Below, piece by piece: positions 13,625-18,100 of a DNA stretch of 57,710 bases (the stretch's first letter is position 1; each line of letters begins with the position of its first letter). The position numbers were made by a program, and so were the translations under genes. The stretch comes from Candidatus Peribacteria bacterium. GTDB taxonomy: Bacteria > Patescibacteriota > Gracilibacteria > Peribacterales > Peribacteraceae. Under the pieces are notes generated by a model that saw only the letters and a list, made by a program, of their open reading frames with translations, did not search any database and was not told where the DNA came from. The stretch spans positions 1 through 57,710 of the forward strand of contig JAHFJP010000002.1 in assembly GCA_023245765.1 (NCBI GenBank), written 5' to 3'.

Positions 13625-16600
13625 TCAGATTTTCTCAAATTTCACGATCACCTTCATCCCATCAAGCTCAACACTATGCCCCTCACCTTTCACGGTTCCG
13701 AGCGTCGCCTGCACCGCCGTCAGCACCGTTTCGCCGTGGACCTTCATGACGTCATCGGCTCCTTCAACGTTCAGCGTGATCCGGTCCTCAAGTTTGAGTC
13801 CGTTCTCCTTGCGCAGGCTCTGGATCGCGCGGATCAGATCGCGCGCGTTGCCCTGGAGCGTGAGCTCCGGCGTCACTCGGGTATCGAGCGAAACGACGAC
13901 GCCTTTGTCGGCCGCGACGTTTTCGCCTTCCCGTCCGCGGTACATCACACGTGCTTCCTCCTGTCCAAGCACTTCATCGAGGATCAGGACTGTCCCATCC
14001 GGCTGGACGGTGTACTCCCCGCGTTTGCCGGCCTGAATGATCTCCTGCACCCGGCTTCCCAGGCGCGGACCGACTTTGCGCGCGTCGACAAACACGAACT
14101 GCTCGGCAATCTTCCCGGGGTCAGTCACCAGGTCGATTGCCTGGACGTTCAGTTCCTCCTGGAGCAATGCCAGTTCGGCATCGGTGATGGCGTCGCCCGC
14201 AAGCATCGCGGGGGGCACTGCGATTGTCGCCTTGGCAAGCGGTTGGCGCAGCTTTACGGTCGCGGTGCTGCGCACAGCGAGGCCGAGTGACGCGATAATC
14301 CGAAGCAGCCTGTTCTTGCGCAGGAGCTTTTCCTCCATCGTCGTGAGCGGCCGGATGGCCGGCCAATCGGTCAGATGGATGCTGCCGTGCTCTTCGGGCA
14401 CCAGATTCAAATAGATACTCTCGGTGATGAACGGACAGAATGGTGCAAGCAGCTGGCAGAGTGTCACCAGCACTTCGTAGAGCGTCGTGAGCGCATCGAG
14501 GCGATCCTGTTCATTCATTTCTTCCAACGCTTCTTCATGCGTATGGAGCCCGGCCTTGCCGGCGAATCTCCTCCTGGAGAGTCGCACGTACCAGTTGGTG
14601 AGTGCGTCGATGGTCTCATGGAGTTCCGCACACGTGGCACTCAGATCGTACCCGTCGAGTTCCTTCGTCATGCGGTTGACCAGATCCTGCACTTCGGCGC
14701 GGATCCAGGTATCAAGCGGATGGCTGGAGCTCCGTCGCGTTGCCACGGCCTGCCACTTGGCGGCATTCGCGTACGTGACGAAGAAGCTGTAGGTGTTCCA
14801 AAGCGGGAGGAGGACCGAGCGGACGACTTCCTCCACCGTTCGTTCAGAAAACCTCAAGTCTTCGCCCCGTACGGCGGGGGAGCTCATCAGCGCGAACCGC
14901 ACCGCGTCGGCGCCGTGTTTTTCGACCACCTCCAGCGGCTCGGGATAATTCTTGAGCTTCTTGCTCATCTTCTTGCCGTCTTCGGCGAGCACGGTTCCGT
15001 TGACGATGCAGTTTTTGAAGGCGGGTTGGTCAAACAGCGCGGCGCTCAAGACTGTCAGTGTGTAGAACCAGCCGCGGGTTTGGTCTATTCCCTCTGCTAT
15101 GAAATCTGCAGGGAAACCCGACGGCATCTCAATACCCTCACCCGGCGCCGCGACGGCGCCCGCCCTCATCCGGCGCGCTCGAAGCGCGCCACCTTCTCCC
15201 ACTGCGGTAGGAGAAGGACCCATCGCGAATGGGAAGTGAGACTGTGCGTATGGCATCGACCCCGACTCAAACCAGCAGTCGAGAACTTCCGGAATACGGC
15301 GCATCAGCGGGCGGAGCGTGAAGGTCGTTGCGGTGGCATTCCCCGGGTCCAGGACTGCCGCTTCACGGTACGTCATCGCGTTTGCAAAGGCATGGAAGGC
15401 ACGAATGAAGCCGCCGTGGGAGACCACGAGAACGCGTTTGCCCGGGTATTCCCGCATCGTGCGCTCGTAGGCTTTCTGCGCGCGCATGATGAACTGGGAG
15501 AGAGTCTCGGCATCGGGAGGTCCCAGGTGATGGAACGAGGCGACGGCCATCGTCTCGGGATCCACGTTGGGGAACTTCGCCAGAATCTCCTTCATCGGTT
15601 TTCCTTCCCACGAGCCGTCCCACCGCTCATTCCACTCGGGCCACTCCGCCACATGCGGGACGCCCAACTGCTCCGAAAGAATCTTCGCGGTTTCCACGGC
15701 CCTCCTGCGGTCGGAGGAAATGATCACGTCGAACGTTTTCTTCTTCAGTTTCTCCGCCGCTTCCCGTGCCTGCCGTCGGCCATTCTCGTTGAGAGATGTA
15801 TCGGTGCCGCTGCCCTGGTTGATTTTCTGGACGTTGAAGTCGGTTTCCCCGTGCCGCACGAGCGTCAGTTCCACATTTGTCTCGTGATCGCCGGTGCCGG
15901 GCCACATGATCGGGTCGACGGTTTCTTTGTGCAGATCAAGCTGCGCGGACGCATTGTGATCCCAAAAATAACTGCTCGGCGCCGCGAATCCGGGGTACGG
16001 CTGGTGCGTCAACTTCAACGGCTCTTCTTTGGTAAAGAAATGCTTGAGGTTCATCGCCAGGTCCGCGTGGGTCACCACAACGATGTGCTCCCCGCGGTGA
16101 CGCGGCAGCGTCTCGTCCATAAAGAGCTGGAGGCGGCCCGCCACCTGGCTCCAGGTTTCCATACCCGGGAAGTGGTAGATGCTCTCGACCTTGCCGGTCT
16201 CGAGCTTGTGGGCCCGCCTCGCCTTCACGAACGTGAGATCGCTGAAGTCCACACTTTTTCCCTCGTAGTCGCCAAACTCCACTTCGCGCAGCCGGTCATC
16301 GACGATCACCTTGGCGCCGGTCGTCTTCGCGATTGCTTCGGCGGTCTGGCGTGTCCGCGCGAGAGGGGAGCAGTAGATCACGTTCACGTTGCCCGTCTGG
16401 AGCGTCATGGCGGCTGCCTTCGCTTGTTCTTTGCCCCGCGCGGTCAGGTCGGTTCCCGGGAGTTTGCCCTGGTACACCGGCGCAATGTTGCCGTCGCTCT
16501 CGGCGTGGCGAAGCACCGTCACTTTGGTGAAGCGGATCGGCATGCGGCTCATCAGGTCGTCACGACTGCCGATGACGTCAAGCTCACCGGAATCCGATCT

Positions 16601-18100
16601 CCAAATCGGCAGCGGCGTGCCCCAGTAGCGGCTGCGGGAGATGGCCCAGTCGCGTGCGCCGTCGAGCCATTTTCCAAACCGTCCATCTCTCAAGTGCCCC
16701 GGGACCCAGCGGGTCTTCGCATTCGCATCGAGCATCTTCCGTTTGATCTTCTCGACCGCGACGAACCAGGATGCGGTCGTGTACGGCAGCAGGGGGGTAT
16801 CGCAGCGCCAGCAGTGGGGGTAGCTGTGGTTGATCGTGTACGAGGAGAACGCGCGGTCATGCTTCTTCAGATAATCGATCATCAACTTGTCCGTTGCCAT
16901 CGGGTCTTTGCCTTCCGGCTTCACGTGGGTGCCGGCGAAATCTTTCACTGCCGGGACGAAGTACCCATCAATCTGCACGTGCGGCAGAACATCGACCTTC
17001 TCGGCGACTGCGGCGGCATTACTGTCTTCACCCGTCGAGGAGGTCAAATGCACGATGCCCGTTCCCTCCTCGTCACTTACCGCGACGGCAGCGTTGACGA
17101 TTACTTTGAAGACACGTTGCCCGTACGTCTGTGGCTTCTTGCTCTTCTGTGTTGAGGGAATCACGGTATCGACGAAGTAGGGGAACAGCGGCGTGTAGTG
17201 CTTTCCGACCAGTTCCTTCGCGGAGATTGCTCCGATGATTTCATGCTCTTTTTTGCCGAAGACTTTCTCAACGAGTTTCTCGGCGAGCACGTACGTCTTG
17301 CCCTCGCTCTTCACCTTTGCGTATGTGATCTTTGGACCGATGGCGAGCCACATGTTGCCGGGCAGCGACCACGGCGTTGTCGTCCAGGCGAGGAGTATTG
17401 TTCCCGGATCATCCAGCAGCGGAAACGTCGCGATCACCGACTGGTCTGTCCGGTCTCTGTAACCTTGGGTCACTTCGAAGTTGCTCAGGGGAGTCGCGCA
17501 CCGGGGGCATACATACATCGGCTTGTGGCCTTCATAGATCAATTTCTTGTCGAAGAGCGACTTGAATACCCACCAGATGCTTTCCATGAAGTCTGCGTCC
17601 ATCGTGCGGTAGTCCCAGTCCATATCGACCCACCGGCCCATGCGTTCCACAACAACACGCCACTCTTTGGTGTAGCGCTGCACGGCGCCGCGACAGAGAT
17701 CGTTGAACGCCTTCACGCCCATCTCCTCGATCTGTTTTTTGCTGCCGAGATTATTTTCCTTCTCGATGATGTTCTCGATCGGCAGCCCGTGGCAGTCCCA
17801 CCCAAACCGCCGCTGCACGCGCTTGCCGCGCATTGTCTGGTAGCGCGGGATCACGTCTTTGATCGTGCCGGCAAGCAGGTGGCCGTAGTGCGGCAGACCG
17901 GTGGCAAACGGAGGGCCATCATAAAAACTGAAACTCTCCTCCTTGTCCGCCTTCGCCATCCCGTTGAGCGGATCGCCCTTATGCCCGCGGCTGGTGCGCA
18001 GACTAATGCTGCGCTTGAACGTATCTTCTTCCTTCCAGTACTTCTGGATGCCCCGTTCAAGGGCAGGGAAGCTTTGTTTTGGATCAACGGAGTCAAACAT
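13625..18100 (-). CDS. ileS: Isoleucyl-tRNA synthetase with two inserted histidine-phosphatase domains
   Basis: A 1491-residue class I synthetase; typical enzymes have about 900-1050 residues. HYGH (71-74) is the HIGH motif and KMSKK (1044-1048) the KMSKS motif. The Zn-type CPRC (198-201) and the DGKKMSK context fit the eukaryote-like IleS2 group. The CP1 editing domain is at about 220-450. Two histidine-phosphatase domains interrupt the sequence between IGSRDDL (510-516) and IPEVLDCWFESGS (936-948), on either side of the native LDLHKETVD segment (721-729). A further 28 residues (about 961-988) come from a GC-rich palindromic repeat, inserted in frame. All inserts keep the frame open, and every core motif is intact. 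C-terminal anticodon-binding regions are present. Confidence 0.95.
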   Translation of the reverse strand: MFDSVDPKQSFPALERGIQKYWKEEDTFKRSISLRTSRGHKGDPLNGMAKADKEESFSFYDGPPFATGLPHYGHLLAGTIKDVIPRYQTMRGKRVQRRFGWDCHGLPIENIIEKENNLGSKKQIEEMGVKAFNDLCRGAVQRYTKEWRVVVERMGRWVDMDWDYRTMDADFMESIWWVFKSLFDKKLIYEGHKPMYVCPRCATPLSNFEVTQGYRDRTDQSVIATFPLLDDPGTILLAWTTTPWSLPGNMWLAIGPKITYAKVKSEGKTYVLAEKLVEKVFGKKEHEIIGAISAKELVGKHYTPLFPYFVDTVIPSTQKSKKPQTYGQRVFKVIVNAAVAVSDEEGTGIVHLTSSTGEDSNAAAVAEKVDVLPHVQIDGYFVPAVKDFAGTHVKPEGKDPMATDKLMIDYLKKHDRAFSSYTINHSYPHCWRCDTPLLPYTTASWFVAVEKIKRKMLDANAKTRWVPGHLRDGRFGKWLDGARDWAISRSRYWGTPLPIWRSDSGELDVIGSRDDLMSRMPIRFTKVTVLRHAESDGNIAPVYQGKLPGTDLTARGKEQAKAAAMTLQTGNVNVIYCSPLARTRQTAEAIAKTTGAKVIVDDRLREVEFGDYEGKSVDFSDLTFVKARRAHKLETGKVESIYHFPGMETWSQVAGRLQLFMDETLPRHRGEHIVVVTHADLAMNLKHFFTKEEPLKLTHQPYPGFAAPSSYFWDHNASAQLDLHKETVDPIMWPGTGDHETNVELTLVRHGETDFNVQKINQGSGTDTSLNENGRRQAREAAEKLKKKTFDVIISSDRRRAVETAKILSEQLGVPHVAEWPEWNERWDGSWEGKPMKEILAKFPNVDPETMAVASFHHLGPPDAETLSQFIMRAQKAYERTMREYPGKRVLVVSHGGFIRAFHAFANAMTYREAAVLDPGNATATTFTLRPLMRRIPEVLDCWFESGSMPYAQSHFPFAMGPSPTAVGEGGALRARRMRAGAVAAPGEGIEMPSGFPADFIAEGIDQTRGWFYTLTVLSAALFDQPAFKNCIVNGTVLAEDGKKMSKKLKNYPEPLEVVEKHGADAVRFALMSSPAVRGEDLRFSERTVEEVVRSVLLPLWNTYSFFVTYANAAKWQAVATRRSSSHPLDTWIRAEVQDLVNRMTKELDGYDLSATCAELHETIDALTNWYVRLSRRRFAGKAGLHTHEEALEEMNEQDRLDALTTLYEVLVTLCQLLAPFCPFITESIYLNLVPEEHGSIHLTDWPAIRPLTTMEEKLLRKNRLLRIIASLGLAVRSTATVKLRQPLAKATIAVPPAMLAGDAITDAELALLQEELNVQAIDLVTDPGKIAEQFVFVDARKVGPRLGSRVQEIIQAGKRGEYTVQPDGTVLILDEVLGQEEARVMYRGREGENVAADKGVVVSLDTRVTPELTLQGNARDLIRAIQSLRKENGLKLEDRITLNVEGADDVMKVHGETVLTAVQATLGTVKGEGHSVELDGMKVIVKFEKI
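15135..15218. repeat. Palindromic repeat embedded in frame inside ileS
   Basis: 84 bp (28 codons) with the same CCCTCACCCGGCG...CTTCTCCC...GGAGAAGG organisation as copies A and B, here as two nested units. It encodes a Gly/Ala/Arg-rich stretch between HFPFA and FPADFIAEG. In ordinary IleRS these two motifs are separated by only a few residues. Confidence 0.75.
15311..15874 (-). other. Second histidine-phosphatase domain inside IleRS (about residues 743-930)
   Basis: LVRHGETDFN (748-757) carries the catalytic RHG, and VVSHGGFIRAFH (892-903) the second His. The NERWDGSWEG segment (824-833) resembles the acid/phosphate-binding loop. The domain begins after VDPIMWPGTGDHE and ends just before MRRIPEVLD. 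All histidine-phosphatase catalytic residues appear present. Confidence 0.85.
16001..16528 (-). other. First histidine-phosphatase domain inside IleRS (about residues 525-700)
   Basis: VLRHAESDGN (529-538) contains the catalytic RH(A/G)E, LREVEFGDYEG (604-614) the acid loop, and VVVTHADLAM (674-683) the second His. It is inserted after the IGSRDDLMSRM segment and before the native LDLHKETVD. It is clearly diverged from the second copy, so the two need not be a recent duplication. Confidence 0.85.

Follow-up and report, generated by a model that had tools for sequence, protein, structure and literature searches.

Histidine phosphatase domains lodged in the isoleucyl-tRNA synthetase of a Candidatus Peribacteria bacterium and of other Patescibacteria

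Aminoacyl-tRNA synthetases rank among the most conserved enzymes, and to our knowledge the guests lodged in their catalytic half are rarely enzymes having an active site of their own. Isoleucyl-tRNA synthetase (IleRS) is represented by the TIGR00392 profile and by the PDB entries 1ile, 7d5c and 8c8v. Catalytic accessory domains in IleRS are already known at annotation level, since NCBIfam holds a curated model, NF040702, for an IleRS fused to an N-acetyltransferase. A further parallel is offered by microcin C immunity, in which the acetyltransferase or hydrolase proteins MccE (GNAT), MccH (HIT) and MccF shield a synthetase from a nucleotide-linked inhibitor; immunity to aminoacyl-nucleotides through a GNAT and a phosphoramidase is established for aspartyl-tRNA synthetase, AspRS (PMC7157772). 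In the open-access literature we found no report of histidine phosphatase (HP) insertions in IleRS, of insertion at multiple sites, of a phylum-wide pattern or of the set of house-cleaning guests in class Ia synthetases described below.

The stretch of DNA analysed here, hereafter the window, comprises 57,710 nucleotides of contig JAHFJP010000002.1 from a Candidatus Peribacteria bacterium. A single open reading frame on its minus strand encodes an IleRS carrying two HP domains, with the following features.

13625..18100, minus strand: ileS-HP-HP gene, one open reading frame of 1491 aa (TIGR00392, ileS, 771.5 bits against a cut-off of 621.4)
17879..17890, minus strand: HIGH motif, here HYGH, aa 71-74 (sequence)
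17498..17509, minus strand: first zinc pair, CPRC, aa 198-201 (sequence)
16871..17488, minus strand: CP1 editing domain, approximately aa 205-410 (alignment to unfused IleRS; limits approximate)
16802..16813, minus strand: second half of the first zinc site, CWRC, aa 430-433 (sequence)
16007..16528, minus strand: HP1, at site A, aa 525-698 (PF00300; HMM and alignment), with catalytic R531, H532, R582, E606 and H678
15908..15940, minus strand: native IleRS segment LDLHKETVDPI, separating both insertions, aa 721-731 (sequence and core alignment)
15314..15874, minus strand: HP2, at site B, aa 743-929 (PF00300; alignment), with catalytic R749, H750, R799, E825 and H895
14957..14971, minus strand: KMSKS motif, here KMSKK, aa 1044-1048 (sequence)
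14234..14713, minus strand: anticodon-binding domain, aa 1130-1289 (PF08264)
13700..14164, minus strand: C-terminal DUF5915, aa 1313-1467 (PF19302)

The TIGR00392 score identifies the protein as an IleRS, and its Pfam content consists of PF00133, PF08264 and PF19302 plus two PF00300 domains. Because unfused IleRS of the same class measure 1019-1065 aa, the window protein is longer by about 430-470 aa, and the figure of some 450 extra residues given in an earlier note on this DNA was right. The same note had taken the HIGH, KMSKS and zinc motifs to be intact; this holds for HYGH, KMSKK and the first zinc site, whereas the second zinc knuckle is lost. Judged from its sequence, the gene product is a working-looking IleRS, the catalytic-core surface loops of which would act as hosts for the two HPs. 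It shares HIGH, KMSKS, CP1, the first zinc site and the anticodon domain with the described enzymes, and differs from them in the two guests, in the missing knuckle and in an editing-domain motif that reads GEDS, not GxDD. It also stands apart from NF040702: the guest enzyme is a different one, no GNAT domain was found in the window protein by Pfam, and the score is 216 bits against a cut-off of 1999.

Specifically, PF00300 matches the window protein in two stretches (jointly E 2.7e-78, 262.5 bits, cut-off 21.7), which in a genome-wide PF00300 search appear as separate matches with E values of 1.6e-44 and 2.9e-35; the sole further PF00300 gene of the genome encodes a separate HP of 236 aa. The HMM places HP2 at aa 743-918, its limit reaching 929 in Pfam, and in the alignment this domain occupies the place held in other IleRS by the CxC of the second zinc knuckle. 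Both domains carry the complete set of RHG, second Arg, acid and second His, the first element reading RHA in HP1. The earlier proposal of two complete HP domains, inserted at separate sites flanking LDLHKETVD and retaining both catalytic histidines and the acid, is thus borne out by Pfam and by alignment. As to specificity, neither HP reaches the cut-off of a substrate-specific NCBIfam phosphatase model; the aminoacyl-AMP-like compounds and tRNA ends named in the earlier note are putative substrates. The best match of HP1 is the phosphoserine phosphatase PspA (NF045917; 97.4 bits for HP1 and 68.8 for HP2, cut-off 350) and that of HP2 the alpha-ribazole phosphatase CobC (TIGR03162; 88.7 and 115.4 bits, respectively, cut-off 162.9). 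The two guests share family and full catalytic set with branch 1 of the histidine phosphatases, and may be regarded as two phosphomonoesterases of its CobC/PspA-like part, differing from the modelled enzymes in scoring far below the cut-offs and in being lodged in a synthetase.

An AlphaFold2 model of aa 1-1135, computed from an alignment of the window and its relatives' locus sequences, reached a mean pLDDT of 83.5 and a pTM of 0.84, and both HPs were well folded in it, except for loops such as 636-641 and 828-860. The structures ranked first by Foldseek were IleRS (7d5c, 8wnd, 1ile), so that, by prediction, neither guest disrupts the synthetase fold.

In other IleRS, the region used by the HPs is bracketed by a second zinc knuckle (CxxC...CxC), which is absent from the window protein, where the sequence reads WRSDSG... 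and ...LMRRIPEVLD. The absence of the knuckle from all 45 scored family members that carry both HPs would fit a purely structural role, in which the HPs stand in for the lost knuckle or aid tRNA binding. Nevertheless, the knuckle is missing from many HP-free IleRS too and is kept in 20 IleRS with an HP at site A, and five near-invariant catalytic residues are not required for such a role, which we consider scarcely credible. Replacement of the knuckle by HPs as a general rule was rejected on the same distribution.

With regard to the editing domain, its acid motif, usually GxDD, reads VHLTSSTGEDS in the window protein, without the usual second Asp (STGEDSN). The GEDS variant is common to the window and seven relatives (L036, L039, L042, L044, L049, L064 and L087); GEDD is retained elsewhere in this family, and GEDS does not therefore exclude IleRS membership. 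The possibility that the HPs compensate for an altered editing motif was discarded, as GEDS is patchy and most HP-bearing IleRS have GxDD. Over the family three alternative motifs are mixed (VHIAPGFGEDD, VTINGSYGEID and VHLTSSTGEDS; approximately aa 345-365 of the window protein, about 17006-17068), as if parts of the editing domain had been exchanged.

Conservation was assessed among relatives, in searches that took in 115 genomes. The IleRS frame measures 1430-1556 aa and shows HP matches in most members of the window's family, and among 54 family IleRS extracted, the site-A domain (HP-A) was present in every one, accompanied by the site-B domain (HP-B) in 46 and alone in eight; none was free of HPs. 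In two family genomes (G003 and G045) no ileS match was obtained at the threshold used, the gene being apparently missing from the assembly. Owing to this distribution, with an identical architecture in dozens of independent genomes, an assembly chimera or a frameshift can be rejected. The earlier note had raised this doubt, together with that of an insert missing from the relatives, and neither applies.

Across the phylum, the nucleophilic His and the catalytic Arg were found in all 188 inserted HPs, and the full R-H-R-acid-H set in 184. The incomplete sets belong to HP-B of L075, to a site-A domain (HP-A1) of L130, to L156, a valyl-tRNA synthetase (ValRS) in which the second catalytic His is lost, and to L166, cut by the contig end; the catalytic residues of homologues, the loss of which was a further worry of the earlier note, are otherwise preserved. 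In pairs of relatives, dN/dS was 0.05-0.11 for HP-A, 0.09-0.26 for HP-B and 0.05-0.18 for the synthetase core. Within the family, the core and HP-A have mean identities of 63% and 62%, respectively, and HP-B has one of 44%, a value pointing to a faster drift of HP-B with its active site retained. At the level of sequence comparison, these data show that purifying selection retains the catalytic residues of the HPs.

Within one genus, L090 and L088 differ by the clean presence or absence of HP-B, the junction reading TIDDITWEGSGK-[HP]-MRRI versus TIDDITWEGSDKGTLKRIPE. This pair shows that, as read from the aligned genes, HP-B can come or go without loss of the synthetase gene. So clean a loss in close relatives also speaks for a reading in which the loops of IleRS simply tolerate insertions and the HPs perform an unrelated, general phosphatase job, their link with the synthetase being meaningless. 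We regard this as rather unlikely, and return to it below.

The earlier note did not deal with the spread of the fusion through the phylum, the use of four sites or the extension to ValRS. Aligning to 16 unfused IleRS, and numbering by core consensus, we placed the insertions at four sites.

Site A, about 488-490: directly ahead of DLHKxxVD
Site B, about 500-509: past DLHKxxVD
Site C, about 540-545: in the interval from WFESGSMPYAQ to ADFIAEG
Site D, about 669-673: in the interval from the KMSKS region to the anticodon domain

The 188 inserted HPs, found across Patescibacteria in 129 synthetases, fall into 111 at A, 53 at B, 6 at C, 13 at D and 5 in ValRS, with a maximum of three in one IleRS (L084 and L120). 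Whole-genome searches with the ileS model over the class and the phylum returned IleRS frames of about 930 to 1800 aa. HP-bearing IleRS occur in at least 21 of 145 phylum genomes, and HP-bearing ValRS in three. The ValRS concerned (L154, with two HPs, L155, L156 and L191) carry the domain in the stretch equivalent to sites A/B of IleRS, and the window genome's own ValRS (L164) has no insert. Among the matches listed, the carriers of HP-IleRS belong to Peregrinibacteria, Paceibacterota, Yanofsky-, Nomura-, Zambryski-, Colwell-, Giovannoni-, Sungiibacteria and similar groups, the IleRS of other phyla are plain, and no HP was seen in leucyl-tRNA synthetase (LeuRS); likewise, in the contig profile scan none of the HP-IleRS among the matches listed came from outside patescibacterial groups or an unspecified bacterium. 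Sister lineages also have HP-free IleRS. Hence HP activity is not generally needed, an observation compatible with insertions of no consequence for the synthetase.

The position of sites A-C in the catalytic half, with site D bordering the anticodon domain, speaks for an idea of the earlier note, namely that the HPs act on tRNA ends. The phosphate removed near the acceptor end would then be a terminal one, 3' or 5', or one added by a toxin. Action on tRNA appears very unlikely to us, given that the matched HP families act on small molecules and that no RNA-binding extension was seen.

The HP tree, built by a quick method that leaves several nodes open, groups the site-A domains of many families and classes together, and places outside this cluster the C and D groups and two sets of HP-B, one from the window's family and the other from family f9. 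From this grouping it follows that IleRS acquired HPs several times. A recent tandem duplication giving HP2 from HP1 was rejected, since the tree sets the two HPs of the window apart. On the IleRS core tree (FastTree), the minimum number of changes in HP presence is 15 at site A, 10 at B, 5 at C and 7 at D. Judging from the HP tree and from these counts, HP-A was probably inserted long ago and has since undergone losses or exchange; HP-B would have been acquired separately and be the more mobile of the two.

HPs are not the only guests of class Ia synthetases. In other families, IleRS contain GNAT domains (L118, L131, L132, L134 and L137), a Nudix domain (L133) or a weak serine-hydrolase match (L120). 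As separate observations, in L121 a Y1_Tnp (IS200-like) transposase domain lies in frame within the CP1 editing domain; L122 resembles L121 by sequence, and their sister L147 lacks Y1_Tnp. The GNAT-bearing L134 reaches 1788 aa in all, with two copies of a weak phage MuF_C-like match, and L131 is similar to it by sequence in this part. In LeuRS, we opened five long representatives from five phylum genomes (L257, L258, L259, L260 and L261) and found an inserted Nudix domain in each; two also hold a serine hydrolase, one HAD_2 and one Ham1p_like. About 25 of the 104 LeuRS in the sample have frames longer than 930 aa, and frames of this length may be similar to the Nudix-bearing LeuRS.

Taken together, these data lead us to propose, tentatively and with a probability of roughly 45%, that the IleRS-tethered HPs are active small-molecule phosphatases that would remove a phosphorylated by-product or inhibitor. 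The substrate of each HP, attacked through the phosphohistidine mechanism usual for these enzymes, would be a small phosphorylated compound that arises at the synthetase or blocks it, for example a by-product of nucleotide nature or an inhibitor bearing a phosphate. This step would be an accessory in-cis 'house-cleaning', outside aminoacylation proper, and, as part of the same proposal, the HP fusion would exemplify a more general tendency of Patescibacteria to build house-cleaning hydrolases into their class Ia synthetases.

The strongest competitor is the reading introduced with the clean loss of HP-B, and the presence of unrelated guests in the same gene (GNAT, Nudix, serine hydrolase, Y1-type transposase, MuF_C-like) adds to its appeal. 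HP, Nudix, GNAT and HAD are families common in bacteria, so that permissive loops and chance could explain the choice of guests without functional coupling. Against this, HP is the dominant guest; separate groups of it have come to all four IleRS sites, and it is found in ValRS as well, and the LeuRS we opened hold Nudix instead, a choice of partner that does not look random. Because IleRS repeatedly chose HP and LeuRS has other house-cleaning hydrolases, we favour a functional link, short of proof.

A different functional link would be immunity: by analogy with the microcin C enzymes, the HPs might destroy phosphate-containing synthetase inhibitors, such as Trojan-horse aminoacyl-nucleotide antibiotics. 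We know of no antibiotic of this kind against IleRS. GNAT is likewise found in these IleRS, HP-B evolves rapidly and is gained or lost among relatives, and the AspRS case (PMC7157772) provides a precedent. The immunity proteins MccE, MccH and MccF differ from the window HPs in being standalone, mostly encoded in antibiotic clusters, and of other folds. We hold this role to be improbable, considering that HP-A is stable family-wide and evolves at the rate of the core, unlike an arms-race gene, and that the HPs are phosphomonoesterases, whereas such inhibitors have phosphodiester-like or phosphoramide links.

Returning to the house-cleaning proposal, a broader version of it is conceivable, if doubtful: the phosphatase of IleRS, and sometimes of ValRS, would provide Patescibacteria with in-cis quality control or immunity directed at nucleotide ligands, LeuRS doing likewise with Nudix, Ham1 and HAD, and these enzymes would make up a new class of 'self-cleaning' synthetases. 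In any case, class Ia synthetases of Patescibacteria host a set of house-cleaning enzymes, and IleRS has repeatedly taken in a metabolic phosphatase, the insertions of which occupy four sites and keep their catalysis under selection, in bacteria with very small genomes. The pattern points to an extra job for a basic translation enzyme in an uncultivated ultra-small bacterium, and raises a testable question, namely which phosphorylated compound needs to be removed at isoleucyl-tRNA synthetase.

We also considered a glycolytic, dPGM-type origin of the HPs. This was rejected, as separate dPGM-like HP genes, L001 of the window genome included, and the fusions with dehydrogenase or pyruvate kinase lie on a different branch of the HP tree. 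The fusions in question join a dPGM-type HP to D-2-hydroxyacid dehydrogenase (L157 and L158) or to pyruvate kinase (L159), and are unrelated to the IleRS HPs. Finally, the IleRS genes L120, L129, L130, L136 and L137, most of which have HP inserts too, contain in-frame TGA codons that are probably recoded.
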